A stretch of DNA of 45,855 bases from an uncultured Methanomicrobiales archaeon (GTDB taxonomy: Archaea > Halobacteriota > Methanomicrobia > Methanomicrobiales > Methanospirillaceae). The DNA lies in the NCBI GenBank assembly GCA_903926075.1, contig CAIYHQ010000130.1, positions 1 to 45,855 of the forward strand, written 5' to 3'. Position 1 is the stretch's first letter; the number at the start of each line of letters is the position of its first letter. The notes beneath the pieces were generated by a model that saw only the letters and a program-made list of their open reading frames with translations, had not been told where the DNA came from and ran no database searches. Below are positions 27,368 through 37,450 of the stretch, in pieces. Both the position numbers and the translations under genes were made by a program.

Positions 27368-27823
27368 TTACCTTTCTGTTAGTTTAATATGCTCTTCGGT
27401 CTTTAAGACAAGATTTTTCTGATCTGATAATCGCGCAATGTCAAGTACCGCAAGCAGGACATGCACCGCGTCCTCAAGATACGAAAGTATATCTGCGGGA
27501 AATAAGGCAAGACCATAGTCATGGCTTAGGTTGTCAGCAATTCCACGATGGTCAAGACCATTTTCCCTGAGTTCAAGGATTTTTCTTGCAAATTTTCTCT
27601 CCGGACAACCACAAAGAGGCGCATCTCTACAATTGCACCTGGTGAAGTCACGAATAAAAAAAAGGATTTGATTTCTCACTTCCGGTTTTAATTGTTCAAA
27701 ATTGATTTTGGAGTTGATGGCCTCAACGACTGCCCCATGAAATGCCGAAGATGGAAGGTGATAACCGCAGAGTCTTTCAAAGGTCTTATGATGCCTGAAT
27801 CTCGCTTTTCTTGCAATCATCAA
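27368..27823 (-). CDS. Stand-alone DUF5814-like Cys-cluster protein
   Basis: This is a 151-residue protein with a compact cysteine cluster Cys63-x-Cys65-x5-Cys71-x-Cys73 ('CNCRDAPLCGC'). A segment 'RKILELRENGLDHRGIADNL' and 'YGLALFPADILSYLEDAVHVL' follow. This resembles the extreme C-terminal domain (DUF5814) of large methanogen DEAD/DEAH helicases, as I recall it, here without a helicase. The cluster probably binds zinc or Fe-S. The start overlaps the stop of the DUF2150 gene by four bases (ATGA), so the two are coupled. The function is unknown. Confidence 0.72.
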   Translation of the reverse strand: MMIARKARFRHHKTFERLCGYHLPSSAFHGAVVEAINSKINFEQLKPEVRNQILFFIRDFTRCNCRDAPLCGCPERKFARKILELRENGLDHRGIADNLSHDYGLALFPADILSYLEDAVHVLLAVLDIARLSDQKNLVLKTEEHIKLTER

Positions 27824-28452
27824 GACTCGCCGGCTTCTTCGTCAAAGTTTTTGAGGGAAGTTAAGGCTTCATGCATTGAATCAATAGTATTAAGCCACTC
27901 TTCAAAAAGGGTCGGCTCTTCCATATCGTCCTTCAGATATTTTCCACAACATGAGCCGCCTTGAATTACAGATGCTCCAATAGATGATGCGATTTCAAGA
28001 AGTTTGTCCGGGTCCTTGTCTCCCATCTTTTTCCCCTCCTTAACAAGGGTTTTGATGTCTCCGGCTTTCTCCCCATTGAGATAAGCCTTGCACGATGAAA
28101 AAAGGACCTGAATAGTCTCCTGAACAGATCGTACTAGTTCCACTACCTCTCCTTCCGGCGGGTTTGAATAAACAATCTCTTCGACCCCCTCAAGCTTCGT
28201 AAGCGCGTCCTCGGTGCTGTATCTGCCATTCTGCTGCAGTTTTATTATTTTCAGGACAGAAAGGATAATATCGAGAGAGAAATTCTGAAGTACCCGAAAA
28301 CCTTCTGGCATCTCATCAGAGTCCGGGTCTCCTGAAAAATCTGATTCTGCAAGTGTAGTTATCCAGTTATCCCACCTTTCCTTATTATAAAAAATATAGA
28401 AAAGTTTTAGTGGTTCTGACTCCTTTTGAGCCTTTTCGGACTTCCGTGCCAT
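27820..28452 (-). CDS. DUF2150 family protein
   Basis: This is about 210 residues of helical, acidic protein beginning 'MARKSEKAQKESEPLKLFYI'. The aromatic 'FYIFYNKERWDNWITTL' near the N-terminus is the family signature I rely on. A 'GGSCCGKY' motif lies in the C-terminal third. The ATG at 28452 was chosen over one at 28512, whose 20 extra residues are unlike the family and Cys/Pro-rich. DUF2150 proteins are restricted to archaea and have no assigned role. It overlaps the DUF5814-like gene by ATGA and lies 88 bases after hisG. Confidence 0.75.
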   Translation of the reverse strand: MARKSEKAQKESEPLKLFYIFYNKERWDNWITTLAESDFSGDPDSDEMPEGFRVLQNFSLDIILSVLKIIKLQQNGRYSTEDALTKLEGVEEIVYSNPPEGEVVELVRSVQETIQVLFSSCKAYLNGEKAGDIKTLVKEGKKMGDKDPDKLLEIASSIGASVIQGGSCCGKYLKDDMEEPTLFEEWLNTIDSMHEALTSLKNFDEEAGES

Positions 28453-28540
28453 TGGAGATCCGTTACACGCGGTAAGAGATGAATTTTTGGGAACAGGACA
28501 GACCGGATGCACATATGATTTAAAACCAAACCCTCACATA

Positions 28541-29498: not shown

Positions 29499-30674
29499 TT
29501 GTCAAAAAGAGTTGTCCTTCTCCGTTATGGTGAACTTTTTCTTAAAAGTGAACCTGTAATGCGCCAGTTTATTAGCGCTCTGATTGTATCTCTCAACCGG
29601 TCATTAAAGGCACATGATCTTGATGCTGTCATAACAACCCCCAGAGGGAGAATCTTTATCGAAGGTTCTCTTCCAGAGAAGATAGCGGAACTGGCATCGC
29701 GTATTTTTGGAGTCATCGATGTAAGCATTGCACTTAAAACGGAAAATGACCCTGATTCACTCGCTAATGCAGCTGCAGAGATTGCGGCCCTGAAATTAAA
29801 AGAAGGCATGTCTTTTGCAGTAAGGCCCACACGTCAGGGAGTGCCTGGTTTTTCCAGTCAGGAACTGGGAGCAAGGGTCGGCTCAGAGATCCTAAACAGG
29901 TTCCCGGGAATCTCTGTTAACCTTAGTTCTCCGGATTATGAGATTTTTGTTGAATCAAGGCCTTTTGGTGGTTATGCCTATGATAAAAGGATACCAGGAC
30001 CGGGCGGTCTGCCGTCGTGTACGCAAGGTACAGTAGTTTCACTGATTTCATCAGGTCTTGATTCCCCTGTAGCTTCCTGGCTCATGATGAAAAGAGGTTG
30101 TGACATTATTCACCTGCATATTGATGGTGGAAAATGGGCTGGCCCCGATGTCCTTTCAACTGCCATTGAAAGCCATGCTGCGCTTTCGCTATGGGCAGCG
30201 GGTGTTAAAATGGAGCTGATAGTAGTACCCGCAGAGTCATTTTATTCAGATCTTGTTTCACTGACAAACCCACGGTATCGTTGTATCATCTGCAAGAGGT
30301 TTATGTACCGGCTTGGAAGTCGTATCACAGATATAACTGGTGCCTATGCGTTAGTCACAGGCGAAAACCTGGGCCAGGTTGCCTCCCAGACTCTCTCAAA
30401 CCTGGCTGTTATTTCAGAATCGGCAAATGTTGCTGTAATCAGGCCGCTTATAACAAATGATAAGACAGATACTATTGTTATCGCGAGGAATATAGGGACT
30501 TTTGTCAAAGGCAATAAAGACCTTGGTTGCCGGGCCGTTCCGGCAAGACCTGCCACAAAATCAACAATCGATGAAATAGTTAAGGCAGAATCAAAAATTG
30601 GTATAGAGGGACATATTGAGAGGGCTGTTGCAGAAAAGCGGTCTATATTTGCACTAAATGGTGAAATTATATAG
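29499..30674 (+). CDS. thiI: ThiI-type tRNA 4-thiouridine sulfurtransferase
   Basis: This is a 391-residue protein starting at TTG. An N-terminal ferredoxin-like and THUMP RNA-binding region ('VVLLRYGELFLKS' onward, to about 170) precedes a PP-loop ATPase with 'SSGLDSP'. It thiolates U8 in tRNA. There is no rhodanese domain, as is usual in methanogens; a Cys pair 'RCIICKRFM' in the catalytic domain fits the archaeal type that uses a CxxC and Fe-S chemistry. Its 3' end overlaps the convergent SepCysS gene by eight bases, and it is divergent from hisG. Confidence 0.92.
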   Translation: MSKRVVLLRYGELFLKSEPVMRQFISALIVSLNRSLKAHDLDAVITTPRGRIFIEGSLPEKIAELASRIFGVIDVSIALKTENDPDSLANAAAEIAALKLKEGMSFAVRPTRQGVPGFSSQELGARVGSEILNRFPGISVNLSSPDYEIFVESRPFGGYAYDKRIPGPGGLPSCTQGTVVSLISSGLDSPVASWLMMKRGCDIIHLHIDGGKWAGPDVLSTAIESHAALSLWAAGVKMELIVVPAESFYSDLVSLTNPRYRCIICKRFMYRLGSRITDITGAYALVTGENLGQVASQTLSNLAVISESANVAVIRPLITNDKTDTIVIARNIGTFVKGNKDLGCRAVPARPATKSTIDEIVKAESKIGIEGHIERAVAEKRSIFALNGEII

Positions 30675-31845
30675 TATTTAGCCCATTTTCCTGGGCTATT
30701 TCCCTGAACGAAAGAGCTACATACTGTGCCTGTTCTCTGGTTATTCCATAGGGATTATACTTCCAGACACGGGTTGCGCCTTGTATGATTCCGGTTATCC
30801 CTTTCTCTTTTAAGGAACTGGTAAAGAAAAATCCCTTTTTTTTATGTTTTTTGGCTACAACATCAAAACTTTTTGTTGTGTCAACACGTGTAAGTGTGTG
30901 CCGGCGGGGATATTCACTTAGTACTTCGGTTCCTTCAATAGAAAGGAGGGAACCGAGTATCATTTCAGCATTACTTAGTTCCCTGTCCCAGTGCCTGACC
31001 CTCTCTTTAACATGTGGGAATGAAGCCATCATACCAATAAGTGTAACTCCCATGAGTGTGCAGCCCATCATTTCCACTTCCTTAATACCAAAAGTCCGTC
31101 CGGTCCGGTCTCCCCTGACCTTCGTAGTCCTGAATACCTCATCAGACCTCTCACTGGTTGTTCCAAGTACACCGGACGGTGCAGGGGCTGCCATGCTTTT
31201 ATGGCCAGAACCCACAACAAAATCTGCTCCAATATCCCGACCGTTTACCGGAATTATACCTACAGTATAAGCCCCGTTATAGAGTACAGGTATATCGTAA
31301 GTATGTGCAACCTTGATTAGATCCCTGACCGGATGGAAGTTGCCGAACTGATAGTCAACATGGTCAAGAAAAAAGAGCTGAGGGTTTCTGCCCTCCCTCC
31401 GGATTACCTCCTCGATTGTCTCTGCCACTGCATCCGCTGAAACAATCCTGTCTTCTCCTGCCTGGACTTCAAATGGAATTCCACCCGATTCTTCAATTGC
31501 AAGAAATTCAGTGTAATGTGAGAGTGATGTGACAAGTACCGGGTCACCTTTGCAGATATATGTACGGGCTACTGCCTGGAATCCTCTACGTGCACCTGGA
31601 ACAACCCTGACCTGGTCCATCCCGATAAACCCTGCCAGGTCCTTATGAAACTGTTCTATTCCGGGTTTTTTTATGTAGTCCAGTCGGTTTGGCCTGACAC
31701 AATGGTCGCACACAGAATATCCGTCACCATAAGCAATTACTGCTTTCATTGCATCCGCTGTAAGCCTCCCCCCGGCCTGTATCGGGTCAAGATTTATCGA
31801 TACCTCTTCAAGGTCACGAACTTCGGGGCCCATTCCACACTTCAT
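30667..31845 (-). CDS. pscS: O-phospho-L-seryl-tRNA:Cys-tRNA synthase (SepCysS)
   Basis: This 392-residue PLP enzyme converts Sep-tRNA(Cys) to Cys-tRNA(Cys), the tRNA-dependent route to cysteine in methanogens. The PLP lysine is Lys216 in 'GSGHKSMAAPAPSG'. The N-terminal 'CDHC' gives Cys46 and Cys49, and Cys262 lies in 'MMGCTLMG'. These three match the essential cysteines known for the family, thought to hold sulfur or an Fe-S cluster. Its start overlaps the stop of a 60-residue gene by four bases. The partner SepRS is not in the window. Confidence 0.95.
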   Translation of the reverse strand: MKCGMGPEVRDLEEVSINLDPIQAGGRLTADAMKAVIAYGDGYSVCDHCVRPNRLDYIKKPGIEQFHKDLAGFIGMDQVRVVPGARRGFQAVARTYICKGDPVLVTSLSHYTEFLAIEESGGIPFEVQAGEDRIVSADAVAETIEEVIRREGRNPQLFFLDHVDYQFGNFHPVRDLIKVAHTYDIPVLYNGAYTVGIIPVNGRDIGADFVVGSGHKSMAAPAPSGVLGTTSERSDEVFRTTKVRGDRTGRTFGIKEVEMMGCTLMGVTLIGMMASFPHVKERVRHWDRELSNAEMILGSLLSIEGTEVLSEYPRRHTLTRVDTTKSFDVVAKKHKKKGFFFTSSLKEKGITGIIQGATRVWKYNPYGITREQAQYVALSFREIAQENGLNTI

Positions 31846-32024
31846 TCGATAAGCTCCTTCCTCATGGTCCTGATATCCTCTTCCACCCGCAAAATAGCGT
31901 TTCTTACGGCCTCTTTTTCTTCAAGGTTAAGAATGTGATTCGGAGCACTGCTTCGCAAAATGACCCTTATATCTGTAAGAGAGAAAAGAGCATCATAAAT
32001 TGATTCTACTGCTTTTTTTGACAT
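31842..32024 (-). CDS. 60-residue protein coupled to SepCysS
   Basis: This is a small helical protein 'MSKKAVESIYDALFSLTDIR' ending in a charged helix 'EAVRNAILRVEEDIRTMRKE'. Its stop overlaps the SepCysS ATG as ATGA, and a purine-rich 'gagaag' precedes its own ATG, so it is very likely expressed. It is far shorter than SepCysE (about 200 residues), the known scaffold joining SepRS and SepCysS, and I see no clear similarity to it. It has no cysteines. A role in the cysteine-tRNA machinery is inferred only from the coupling. Confidence 0.72.
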   Translation of the reverse strand: MSKKAVESIYDALFSLTDIRVILRSSAPNHILNLEEKEAVRNAILRVEEDIRTMRKELIE

Positions 32025-32128: not shown

Positions 32129-33277
32129 ATGAAGTTCGTTCATATTGCAGACACACATCTCGGCCTCTCGGCATTTAACAGGATAGACCCTGATACAGGA
32201 ATGAACATGCGTGAGGCCCAGATATATGCGAACTTCCTTTTATCTGCGGATGAGATCGTCAAAGAGCGGCCAGATGCCGTTGTTCATGCAGGTGACCTTT
32301 TTGACCATGTCAAACCCAAGACTAAAGCCTATACTACTGCTCTTGAAGCGCTGGAAAGGTTCTCTGATGCTGGAATTCCTCTTATCCTTATCGCAGGAAA
32401 CCATAGCATGCCAAAGACCAGATATACAGATTCTCCTTTTAAAGTCCTCAAATACCATCATGCACAGATTTATGCTGCGTATCAATATCGTTACGAGAAA
32501 ATTGAACTTGATGATACAACTTTTCACCTTATCCCGAATATGCTCAGACCTGAAGATTACGGCAGCGCCTACAATGATGTCTCAATCAATAATAACTCGG
32601 CAAATGTACTTGTCACCCATGGCCTTGCCGACCAGATAAAAGACAGAAGGCTTGCAACTGTAGCTGAGCATGAGCTGAATAGTACAATTTTGTCGCCGGA
32701 TTTCACTTACATTGCACTAGGACATTATCATAACCAGTATCCTGTCACAAATAATGCCTGGTATTCTGGTTCACCAGAATTCTTCACATATGGTGAGATT
32801 GATGAAGTGAAAGGTGGCCTTGTTGTTGACACTAATAGCGGAGTTGTGGAACATTTCCCATTGCCACATACTCCTATGACAAACCTTGGTACAATTGACT
32901 GCAGTAACATTTCAATTCACGAAGTCCCTTGTAAAATTCTAGAAAATATTGAGAACAGGAGATTGGAAAAAGGGTCCATGGCAATAATCACGTTAACCGG
33001 ACTCGACTCTGAAAGTGCAAAGCTTATGGATATGAAGCAGCTTTCCAATGTGCGTGAACACCTCCTTGACCTGAAGGTGAAGATAATTCAAAGAGATCGT
33101 CTGCAACCGGAAAACCGTTTCTCTCCAGGAAAAAAAGTGGACTACATCAGGGAATTTGATAATTTCATCGGGAAAACTGACCTGAGCCCGCAGGACAAGA
33201 AGATAGTCCTCGAAAAAGGGATAGAAGTGCTCAATTATGTCATTTCCTTAAGACAGGAGAAAGACCATGATACTTGA
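32129..33277 (+). CDS. mre11: DNA double-strand-break repair nuclease Mre11
   Basis: This is a 382-residue metallophosphoesterase nuclease. The phosphoesterase motifs are in order: 'IADTHLG', 'VHAGDLFDH', 'IAGNHS', 'LVTHG' and 'ALGHYHN'. A capping domain and a C-terminal Rad50-binding helix region follow. It acts with Rad50 in processing DNA ends. It is the first gene of a four-gene operon; its 3' end overlaps rad50 by 11 bases. An AT-rich 'ttattatagatataa' just upstream of the ATG contains possible TATA elements but is too close for certainty. Confidence 0.97.
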   Translation: MKFVHIADTHLGLSAFNRIDPDTGMNMREAQIYANFLLSADEIVKERPDAVVHAGDLFDHVKPKTKAYTTALEALERFSDAGIPLILIAGNHSMPKTRYTDSPFKVLKYHHAQIYAAYQYRYEKIELDDTTFHLIPNMLRPEDYGSAYNDVSINNNSANVLVTHGLADQIKDRRLATVAEHELNSTILSPDFTYIALGHYHNQYPVTNNAWYSGSPEFFTYGEIDEVKGGLVVDTNSGVVEHFPLPHTPMTNLGTIDCSNISIHEVPCKILENIENRRLEKGSMAIITLTGLDSESAKLMDMKQLSNVREHLLDLKVKIIQRDRLQPENRFSPGKKVDYIREFDNFIGKTDLSPQDKKIVLEKGIEVLNYVISLRQEKDHDT

Positions 33278-36200
33278 ACGGCTATACCTGAAAAATTTTA
33301 AACGCTTTCTCTCTGAAGAGATCCTGTTTGCAGACGGGATAACAGGGATAGTAGGGAATAACGGAACAGGAAAGTCAAGCATCGTTGAAGCAATACTACT
33401 CGCACTTTTCGGAATCAGAGCAACCGGGATTGATACTTCTTACATTATATCCTCTGCAGCCCGCGATGGTGAGAAGTGTACGGTGGAACTTACATTCACA
33501 CTGAAAGGCCAGTCATACACTGTTTCCCGCACAATAGGGGCCGGAAATGATCACGCAGCAAAAATATACCTTAATAGCAAGATACTGGCCAAAGGGGTTA
33601 ATGAAGTAGCAGGGGAAGTGAAACGGATAATCGGATTGAGCCCTGAAGACTTTAAAAATACAATCTATGCAGGCCAGAAGGACCTGATGTCACTACTTTC
33701 AAAAAATCCAGGTAAGAGAAAGGAATGGTTTTCAAGGGTCATTGGAATCGATCACCTTAAAATTGAGAGCAATGTCATACTCAAATCCGAAATTGATGAA
33801 ACATCTGAAAAAATTGCAAGGACCGAAGGAAAACTTCAGGAACTTGATAAAGTTGCAATAGAGTCCTCTGTTTCTGAACTGAAGCAAAAGTGCATTGATT
33901 GCGAAATTGAATTTGAATCGACCGGAATTTCAATCGATAATCTGGATATCAAGAAAAAAGAGTTTGATCTTAACCTTCAGGTTTTGCAGGAAAAGGCACA
34001 AAAAGGCGGGAACCTGTCAGCCGAGTTGAGTCATATTACAGATGAGAGTAAGAGAGTCAATGATGAGATAGTGAAAAATGAAGAACTTATCAGTTCTATT
34101 GAGTCCAACCGGGTTCTATGGGAGCGAATAACAAAGCTTGAAGAGGAATACCAGGAGATAAACAAAGACCTGGAACTCATCAGTGAAGACCATATTGCAT
34201 ATACAAATATCAATATTGAACTAGGGTTTGAAAGGACCAGGTTACTGGAACTGGATAAAAAAATTGCAAATGAAAGGACAGAAATTTCCCTATTAGGCGA
34301 ACAGGTCAGGGAAATGGAAACCCTCCATCCTGATTTGAAACGCCGGGAAACTGCACTCCAGGAACTTAATGAATTAAAAGAACGTGAAAAAGTCTATTCA
34401 ACATATATCAACCGTCGAAATGAGTTGCTTCAGAAAGTCTCATTCCTTGAACAGAGGGAAAAAGAACTATTCTCTGAGCTTAATGCAATACGAGCTGCAG
34501 AGGAAGAGTGTAATTCTTTAAACATAGTACTTGCAGCCCTTCCGACGAAGAAAGAACAACTGAAGGGCTTAACCACACTTCAGTCCCTTCATTTCAACTT
34601 AAGGTCCTGGCAGGAACAGGCAGTTAAAGGGGAAAATGAATTAAATTCGCTATTAGAAAGCGAAATTGCTATCAGGGACAAACTAAAAGGCCTGGAATCT
34701 TTCGAAATAGAAAAAGAAAAAATTTCAAACGAAATAGGGCTCTGTACACAATTAAAAGGAAAATTACAAAGTGATCTTGATAAACTTGAGCGGGATCTGG
34801 CACAGATACGCAAAGATAGTCAGGATATTGATGAGATTGGAGAGAAAGGGACCTGTCCACTCTGCAAACAGGAACTTGGTGAACACTTCCACAAAATTCA
34901 TGAAGAATATTCAGCCAGGAAGGATCTTCTTGGAGAGCTTTTTATAAAGAAGAGAGAGGAGTCAAAAAGCCTTAAGGAAAAAATGGATGTTCTAACGAGG
35001 ACATTAAACGAGATAACAAATTCCGAAAAACAGCTTCAGGTAATAAATAACGAATATCTGACAATTTCTGCAAGAATTAAGGAGACTAATAACCGGATCA
35101 ATGGATGGAAAGAGAAAGTTGCACTTGAAGAGGAGGCAATAGGAAAGATAAGTTATCCTGATCTGGACGTAACAGACATACCCATAATCGAGAGCGAAGT
35201 TAAGTCTCTAGAGGAGTCAAAGACAAAACGTGACGAGCTCGTTGGAAAGACATCCCGCGGGCCCGGGCTTCTTCTGGAGCAAAAGAAAGTCCTGGATGAC
35301 CTGGTTTTTACAAAAACTGAAATCAAAACGGTTAAAGATGAAATTACAACCCTATCTTTCAATCCTGATGAGATTATTAAACTGGAAGCTGGAATCAGGA
35401 AATTAGAAGATTCATATCAAAAATACATGAAGCTCGAAGTCAGGTCTAAAGAGATACCTGCACATGAAAAGACTCTTTCTATTGCATTAAAAGACTACAT
35501 CGAGACCGAACTTAAAGTTCAATCTATCCTAAACAGACTGGAAAAACTGAAGGTGCAGGAAGACTTGTTTACGAGGAAAAAACAGGAATTAAATGAACTT
35601 CTTCCGGTTCATAAACGTTACCAGGAGCTTCTCCCGCTATTCCATAAACTCCCACTCTACTTCGAAACAAGGGAGAATTTACTGGAGAGATCACTTTATC
35701 TGAAATCGCAGGTTGAAGCAAAGGAGTCCCTCTTAAAGTCTTTAAATTTTAACCCTGACTCAATCCCGCTAATAAAGAAAGATATTGAAAGACTCCATGA
35801 GACGATAAATAATGAAAAAGGGAAGGCAGCTGGACTTGAAGAAAGGATAAGTCAGATAAAAAAAGAGATAGAAGAAAAAGGCAGTACTCTTGCAAGGATA
35901 GAGGGATATACACAGGAACATCGTGAACTTATAGAACAGGTCCGTGTCCTTCGAATCACGCGGACAGCCATCACGAATTATGTCGAGTACCTAATGAACG
36001 TTGTTCAGAAAAACATAGAGAGTGATGTTGGTTCTTTACTTGGAATAATAACAGATGGAAAGTACGAAGATGTCATTCTTGACCCTGACTTCACGGTACT
36101 GGTGCATGACCTTAATGGCGACTTTCCTGTAGAACGTTTCAGTGGTGGAGAACAGGACGATATTGCGGTTGCACTCAGAATTGCATTAAGTCGTTACATT

Positions 36201-36434
36201 GCAGGTATGAAAGGTTTCGATGAAAGCACTTTCCTGATATTTGATGAGATTTTCGGAAGCCAGGACGAGGAACGCAGGTCCAACCTCATAACCGCGATGA
36301 GGAGCCTTGAACAAAAGTTTCCCCAGATCCTTCTTATCTCACATATCCCGGAAGTACAGAACGAATTTGAGACAACTCTGCTTGTTGAAATGACTGGTGA
36401 AGGGTCGAGCAAGGTTAGGCAGGTGAGTTATTGA
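33267..36434 (+). CDS. rad50: DNA double-strand-break repair ATPase Rad50
   Basis: This is a 1055-residue SMC-like ATPase. Walker A 'GNNGTGKSS' is near residues 30-38. Long coiled coils flank the zinc hook Cys530-Pro-Leu-Cys533. The ABC signature 'FSGGEQDD' (Ser959) and Walker B 'FLIFDEIFG' (Asp993, Glu994) are at the C-terminus. It tethers and opens DNA ends together with Mre11. Length and order are normal for archaea. It overlaps mre11 by 11 bases and the nurA start by four (TTGA). Confidence 0.97.
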   Translation: MILERLYLKNFKRFLSEEILFADGITGIVGNNGTGKSSIVEAILLALFGIRATGIDTSYIISSAARDGEKCTVELTFTLKGQSYTVSRTIGAGNDHAAKIYLNSKILAKGVNEVAGEVKRIIGLSPEDFKNTIYAGQKDLMSLLSKNPGKRKEWFSRVIGIDHLKIESNVILKSEIDETSEKIARTEGKLQELDKVAIESSVSELKQKCIDCEIEFESTGISIDNLDIKKKEFDLNLQVLQEKAQKGGNLSAELSHITDESKRVNDEIVKNEELISSIESNRVLWERITKLEEEYQEINKDLELISEDHIAYTNINIELGFERTRLLELDKKIANERTEISLLGEQVREMETLHPDLKRRETALQELNELKEREKVYSTYINRRNELLQKVSFLEQREKELFSELNAIRAAEEECNSLNIVLAALPTKKEQLKGLTTLQSLHFNLRSWQEQAVKGENELNSLLESEIAIRDKLKGLESFEIEKEKISNEIGLCTQLKGKLQSDLDKLERDLAQIRKDSQDIDEIGEKGTCPLCKQELGEHFHKIHEEYSARKDLLGELFIKKREESKSLKEKMDVLTRTLNEITNSEKQLQVINNEYLTISARIKETNNRINGWKEKVALEEEAIGKISYPDLDVTDIPIIESEVKSLEESKTKRDELVGKTSRGPGLLLEQKKVLDDLVFTKTEIKTVKDEITTLSFNPDEIIKLEAGIRKLEDSYQKYMKLEVRSKEIPAHEKTLSIALKDYIETELKVQSILNRLEKLKVQEDLFTRKKQELNELLPVHKRYQELLPLFHKLPLYFETRENLLERSLYLKSQVEAKESLLKSLNFNPDSIPLIKKDIERLHETINNEKGKAAGLEERISQIKKEIEEKGSTLARIEGYTQEHRELIEQVRVLRITRTAITNYVEYLMNVVQKNIESDVGSLLGIITDGKYEDVILDPDFTVLVHDLNGDFPVERFSGGEQDDIAVALRIALSRYIAGMKGFDESTFLIFDEIFGSQDEERRSNLITAMRSLEQKFPQILLISHIPEVQNEFETTLLVEMTGEGSSKVRQVSY

Positions 36435-37450
36435 GTGGGTATAAAGAGGAAATTAATACTGTTGTAAAGTTTCTCGGAGACAGGATTCCCAGTAATATCG
36501 AAGAGATGTTCATCCGCTTAAGTGGAATTTCAAAAAAAGATTTTTTTATAGTTGAAGCTCATGAAACCGGGACGGTTGCAGGTGTTGATGGCAGCAACGC
36601 AAATATACTTGATGCAGGATTTTTAGCCCTCTCCGCTTTTCGGGCAGTAGTCAGTCTTTTTAATGAGAATCAGAGGATCAAGAGGGGTATGACGCCGATA
36701 AAATTTAATTTTATCGGATCAGGTGAGTATAATGATGATTTTCCAAAATTATTCAACGAATGCTTTGGAAAAGATCCTGGTACCAGGCTTTCAAATGCAG
36801 ACCCTTACAAAGTCAACTCAGTCGTTAGGGATACCCTTGAGTACTTTGTAAGTCTTGAAACTCTTAAAACGCTCGAAAAAGAAGCCCTGCTCCTTATTGA
36901 CGGGGCATTTCATGTAGAACATAAAAGCCTTGACCCCATCATTGAAGAACTTTTTTTCCGGGCTGAAGAAAAAGAGATTAACATATGTGCTGTGACAAAA
37001 CGGTGTGAAGTAACCTGGGGAGACGGTTACCCGCTAATCCCTGCAGTTATGAGGGCCGCAGAGAAGTTCAATATGAAAGCACCCTGGTGGATAAAAATTG
37101 ACGACGACTGGATTTCCGGGAGAAGAACTCCTGAATGGAAAAAAGGTTCGATATTCATTACACTTCTGCATTCCTGTGCGAAATCTGCACTCAAAGTGGA
37201 ACTCCCTCGTTATTATGGTAATGAAAGGATCTGTAAGGTGATGCAGAAACTTGCTGCAGTTTCATGCGACGGACGGATACCCGGTTATCCATTTCCTCTC
37301 TTTGATGCTCACAGGGCCTGTGCAATAAAGAGGGAAGTGGCATCAGATATAAGAAACCGTATTATTGAAGGTATGACAAAACGAGGAATACAGCATAGGG
37401 ATTTCAAAGCAGTCTGGGAAGATATACATGATGAATTTAACCATTACTGA
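36431..37450 (+). CDS. nurA: 5'-3' end-resection nuclease NurA
   Basis: This is a 339-residue RNase H-like nuclease that resects DNA ends with HerA. The metal-binding motifs visible are 'VAGVDGSNA' near residue 50, 'LLIDGAFHV' in the middle and the later acidic/His residues near 'GYPFPLFDAHR'. The start is TTG at 36431, overlapping the rad50 stop as TTGA, the same coupling style as the NIL-ferredoxin gene. Its end overlaps herA by 23 bases. Confidence 0.93.
   Translation: MSGYKEEINTVVKFLGDRIPSNIEEMFIRLSGISKKDFFIVEAHETGTVAGVDGSNANILDAGFLALSAFRAVVSLFNENQRIKRGMTPIKFNFIGSGEYNDDFPKLFNECFGKDPGTRLSNADPYKVNSVVRDTLEYFVSLETLKTLEKEALLLIDGAFHVEHKSLDPIIEELFFRAEEKEINICAVTKRCEVTWGDGYPLIPAVMRAAEKFNMKAPWWIKIDDDWISGRRTPEWKKGSIFITLLHSCAKSALKVELPRYYGNERICKVMQKLAAVSCDGRIPGYPFPLFDAHRACAIKREVASDIRNRIIEGMTKRGIQHRDFKAVWEDIHDEFNHY

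Follow-up and report, generated by a model that had tools for sequence, protein, structure and literature searches.

A 60-residue protein encoded directly before SepCysS in a Methanomicrobiales archaeon: a probable minimal homologue of SepCysE

SepCysS makes cysteine on its transfer RNA (tRNA). In a 45,855-nucleotide stretch of DNA from an uncultured Methanomicrobiales archaeon (GenBank assembly GCA_903926075.1, contig CAIYHQ010000130.1; the whole stretch is hereafter called the window), the SepCysS gene is preceded and overlapped by a small open reading frame (ORF), raising the question of what a 60-residue protein so coupled might do for this enzyme. We conclude that the ORF is very probably the gene for SepCysSn, a SepCysE homologue reduced to the SepCysS-binding hairpin and probably having a SepCysS-only role. 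The features concerned are as follows.

31842..32024, minus strand: very probable SepCysSn, a 60-residue stand-alone homologue of the N-terminal (SepCysS-binding) domain of SepCysE; predicted two-helix hairpin, residues 3-25 and 34-59
31842..31845, minus strand: ATGA overlap of the SepCysSn stop and the SepCysS start, common to 68 of 80 related loci
30667..31845, minus strand: SepCysS, 392 residues, exceeding the TIGR02539 cut-off

The small ORF is intact, with an ATG start, 60 codons, a TGA stop and no cysteine codon; the open frame around it comprises 67 codons, only 7 beyond the 60. The original prediction for this DNA had described a real, cysteine-free gene whose frame overlaps SepCysS by ATGA, and its coordinates and length agree with ours. 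It had also called the protein undescribed, whereas the family has been published as SepCysSn (passages in PMC5424206 and PMC8762117).

Identity of the small protein

When the single sequence was searched against Pfam, a match to DUF2100 was obtained over profile positions 38-85, with an expectation value (E) of 0.007 and a score of 16.7 bits. We take DUF2100 to be the SepCysE family, an assumption supported by the Methanocaldococcus jannaschii control, which matched in the DUF2100 search. NCBIfam gave no match for the small protein. A single-sequence search of the PDB returned only an unrelated match (E 0.68), and an alignment profile was needed: with a profile of 40 members (alignment A1, consisting of the window sequence and 39 sequences hand-picked for variety from the 80 related loci), the best match among 177,635 PDB sequences was the SepCysE protein MJ1481 (3wkr, 5x6b, 5x6c; residues 54-94, E 0.015), the next unrelated match having E 2. 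Four residues, R20, R24, P28 and H30, do not vary among the 40 aligned members; MJ1481 and the family share an AP-x-H-x-L motif around the last two.

Comparison of folds led to the same family. AlphaFold2 predicts a helical hairpin with helices at residues 3-25 and 34-59 and a mean predicted local distance difference test score (pLDDT) of 96.6. In a Foldseek search of 350,542 chains, ranks 1-5 were all SepCysE N-terminal domains (probability 1.00, E 0.08-0.16, 24-26% identity), with rank 6 at E 1.3, and VIA-align superimposed the model on SepCysE with a Z of 8.0 and a root-mean-square deviation of 1.9 over 59 residues at 22% identity.

Several observations weigh against this assignment. The Pfam score falls below the curated DUF2100 cut-off of 23 bits, and just 3 of the 40 members match DUF2100 at E 0.1. 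The E of the PDB profile match is only 0.015, no Foldseek match lies under E 0.001, and no single score is decisive. Helical hairpins are common, and unrelated ones tie with SepCysE in VIA-align Z (up to 8.4), SepCysE having a tighter fit and a higher identity than the hairpins ranked above it. Finally, the invariant R20 and R24 are unmatched in MJ1481 in the printed alignment, and the SepCysS interface may for this reason differ from that of MJ1481. The scores are modest one by one, but sequence, fold and gene context converge on one family.

The original prediction had set the protein apart from SepCysE, a contrast that yields to the homology with the SepCysE N-terminal domain indicated by profile and fold. 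Full SepCysE is ruled out, the ORF being too short and two SepCysE parts missing, and a Pfam match to the DNA gyrase C-terminal region (E 0.03) was dropped as chance since no other of the 40 members matched it. A separate stretch (L193, 2924-3127) contains a 67-residue ORF that the SepCysSn profile matches weakly (E 3.8e-5); this ORF adjoins a gyrase-B-like gene (this label, like those of the ThiF-like, nucleotidyltransferase-like and Rad50-like ORFs below, was read from the sequence), and there is no SepCysS in that stretch.

Conservation, and split and fused forms

Conservation was assessed in 80 loci, retrieved only on the similarity of their SepCysS and ranking as the best 80 of 116 relatives; these lie near the query SepCysS and hence within the split clade described below. 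In 80 of 80, a profile-matching small ORF immediately precedes SepCysS; in 79 it spans 59 or 60 codons between model position 1 and the stop, and in 68 it overlaps SepCysS by exactly four nucleotides. Its start codon is GTG in 35, ATG in 29, TTG in 14 and another in 2. The median ratio of non-synonymous to synonymous substitution rates (dN/dS) is 0.17 over 33 disjoint pairs, every pair lying below 1. The small gene is under purifying selection, and its conserved arrangement with SepCysS is far beyond chance. Flanking genes are much less constant, ThiI being found in 31 of the 72 loci with downstream room and Mre11 in 25 of the 71 with upstream room.

A single-sequence search matched the small protein in 142 of 150 genomes of Methanomicrobiales; in the phylum, 158 of 392 genomes have a match. 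Seven of the eight non-matching Methanomicrobiales genomes (G038, G057, G061, G067, G103, G123 and G127) are also without a full SepCysS match, while in the eighth (G113) the hairpin domain is fused to SepCysS; at least one of the 142 matching genomes (G069) matches only in a fused SepCysS. These cases indicate that a missing small gene goes with a SepCysS missing from the assembly or with fusion. Of 53 loci retrieved with the small protein or its profile as query, 52 have SepCysS within a few bases; the exception (L029) is a short stretch in which SepCysS was not found. The small gene that the original prediction proposed to look for before SepCysS in other Methanomicrobiales is present throughout the 80 loci and in nearly all of the genomes, and in relatives its frame and length are kept rather than broken or lost. 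Genome G054 carries a second, diverged split SepCysSn-SepCysS pair (L143, 1994-3369) apart from the first.

The genome of the window encodes a second SepCysS (contig C115; L142, 1387-2775) in which the hairpin domain is fused at the N-terminus in one chain. A two-sequence BLAST of this fused copy against the small protein aligned 23 residues at 48% identity (E 2e-5). Adjoining the second SepCysS are a ThiF-like ORF and an ORF resembling Cys/Met pyridoxal-phosphate enzymes. All 30 of the loci L031-L060, which were picked by SepCysS score alone, contain the hairpin domain, 17 of them fused and 13 split; loci L142-L154 and L186-L203 were hand-picked, many for having a domain match. The profile E of the fused domain is 0.004 for the genome's own copy and 1.6 for the weakest (L052). 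Pfam found no DUF2100 domain in three fused SepCysS proteins, and the fused-domain assignment therefore rests on the family profile and the two-sequence BLAST.

When 67 SepCysS catalytic regions (34 fused, 33 split) are placed in a tree, one change of state suffices, with support of 90/95 and a single change in 91% of 200 bootstrap trees. The 67 were kept from 72 rows, those dropped being repeats and L153, in which no domain was found and N bases lie upstream of SepCysS. The tree has no outgroup and so separates the two states without deciding between fusion and fission. One locus (L198, 2220-2465) has an extra stand-alone hairpin copy that is almost identical to the fused domain lying further downstream; a nucleotidyltransferase-like ORF separates the two copies, and the arrangement looks like a partial duplication.

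Genomic setting and role of the hairpin

SepRS was found in the genome (contig C50, E 1e-199). No match over the cut-off was obtained for CysRS, none for SepSecS, and none for a full-length DUF2100 protein, the small ORF being the sole DUF2100 match in the genome; at an assembly completeness of 96.94%, these absences are likely rather than certain. SepRS/SepCysS appears to be the sole Cys-tRNA route in this organism, a setting of the kind described for archaea without selenocysteine in passages of Mukai et al. The SepCysS of the window has an 8-residue insertion when compared with the solved enzymes of M. jannaschii and A. fulgidus; such an insertion is reported, in passages of Mukai et al. 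(PMC5424206), to be absent from clade I and present in clades II-VII, with exceptions.

By analogy with SepCysE, whose N-terminal hairpin is the part that binds the SepCysS dimer, SepCysSn most likely binds in dimeric form and serves to stabilise or orient that dimer. The solved M. jannaschii complex suggests that a pair of SepCysSn hairpins would lie at the two-fold axis of the SepCysS dimer, where they may hold it in its active arrangement and perhaps position the N-terminal chain of SepCysS, which extends along the tRNA. Overlapping frames, or fusion, would keep SepCysSn and SepCysS at 1:1 and favour co-translational assembly. SepCysSn probably neither bridges to SepRS nor carries tRNA, in which case Sep-tRNA(Cys) must reach SepCysS from SepRS by another route. 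We infer this SepCysS-only role from the absence of the SepRS-binding helix and the tRNA domain and from the changed SepRS dock.

The original prediction had suggested a scaffold or stabiliser. A stabiliser of SepCysS is plausible by analogy; a minimal scaffold bridging SepRS and SepCysS is improbable. SepCysE does bridge these enzymes in class I methanogens, and with SepRS present and CysRS undetected, channelling of Sep-tRNA would be useful. However, MJ1481 binds SepRS through an N-helix (residues 1-24) and loses this binding when the helix is deleted, and this helix is absent here, as is the tRNA domain: the ORF starts at the equivalent of MJ1481 residue 42, with only the 7 further codons open. 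The loops of the genome's SepRS that correspond to those docking the N-helix in M. jannaschii are also changed relative to M. jannaschii SepRS (presumably 2du7, in which the loops stand at the residue numbers published for that enzyme), loop 1 from ILDEF to GSING and loop 3 from ALVSN to AARCG, with loop 2 shortened by five residues in the FNGERRV region. These changes resemble A. fulgidus SepRS.

An equally small chance is given to a hairpin that binds SepCysS mainly to dock a further partner, for instance a sulphur donor or a loader of the SepCysS iron-sulphur cluster, rather than as a stabiliser. The two arginines that are invariant in 40 of 40 members and unmatched in MJ1481 do suggest an extra function, and ThiI neighbours SepCysS in 31 of the 72 loci with room for it; this linkage, however, is inconsistent and always convergent (opposite strand in 33 of 33 matches), and docking of another partner has no direct evidence. 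That the short, SepCysS-overlapping frame is no protein gene, being instead a spurious ORF or a leader coupling translation to SepCysS, is refuted by the dN/dS median of 0.17, the invariance of R20, R24, P28 and H30, and the occurrence of the hairpin in other lineages as a protein domain fused with SepCysS, and has next to no chance of being correct.

Elsewhere in the window, ThiI occupies 29499-30674, convergent to SepCysS, and upstream, in divergent orientation, 32129-37450 contains a Mre11-like gene, a 1055-residue Rad50-like ORF and a NurA-like gene (19.7 bits against a cut-off of 21). A DUF2150 protein, of an archaeal family of unknown function, is encoded at 27820-28512 (E 2.6e-58). No tRNA genes were found in the window.

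Comparison with SepCysE and described SepCysSn

Since SepRS/SepCysS appears to be the only Cys-tRNA route here, SepCysSn may be a small protein that is essential and easy to overlook. The split and fused versions in one genome offer a natural experiment on the function of a SepCysE lacking its SepRS and tRNA parts. We raise, tentatively and as a possibility we somewhat doubt, that SepCysS outside class I methanogens is in effect a two-part enzyme, with the hairpin serving generally as its second subunit or domain; if so, full SepCysE would be an elaboration of a hairpin core, to which a helix for SepRS binding and a tRNA carrier were added.

The likeness to SepCysE (MJ1481; DUF2100; 3wkr, 3wks, 5x6b, 5x6c) lies in the hairpin, which matches its N-terminal domain at residues ~42-100. 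Unlike SepCysE, the small protein has 60 rather than 216 residues and no linkers. Its first residue corresponds to residue 42 of MJ1481, leaving no N-helix, and it ends at residue 60, without the C-terminal Toprim-like domain (residues 111-213) with which SepCysE binds tRNA.

SepCysSn is a described family whose gene order is already in print (passages in Mukai 2017, PMC5424206; 2022, PMC8762117; review PMC9499178), and a fused form, SepCysSN, occurs in related SepCysS (passages in PMC5424206 and PMC8762117). The main-text passages of these last two papers do not name Methanomicrobiales for SepCysSn, and no experiment on SepCysSn was found in a literature coverage that largely leaves out subscription papers. 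The present analysis adds the near-universal presence in Methanomicrobiales (80 of 80 loci, 142 of 150 genomes), the changed SepRS dock, the occurrence of both a split and a fused paralogue in a single genome, and a tree in which one transition between these states suffices. The window protein is like the described SepCysSn in being encoded by a separate gene directly before SepCysS, with the same domain fused in relatives (34 fused proteins in the tree set, a number that counts the genome's own copy).
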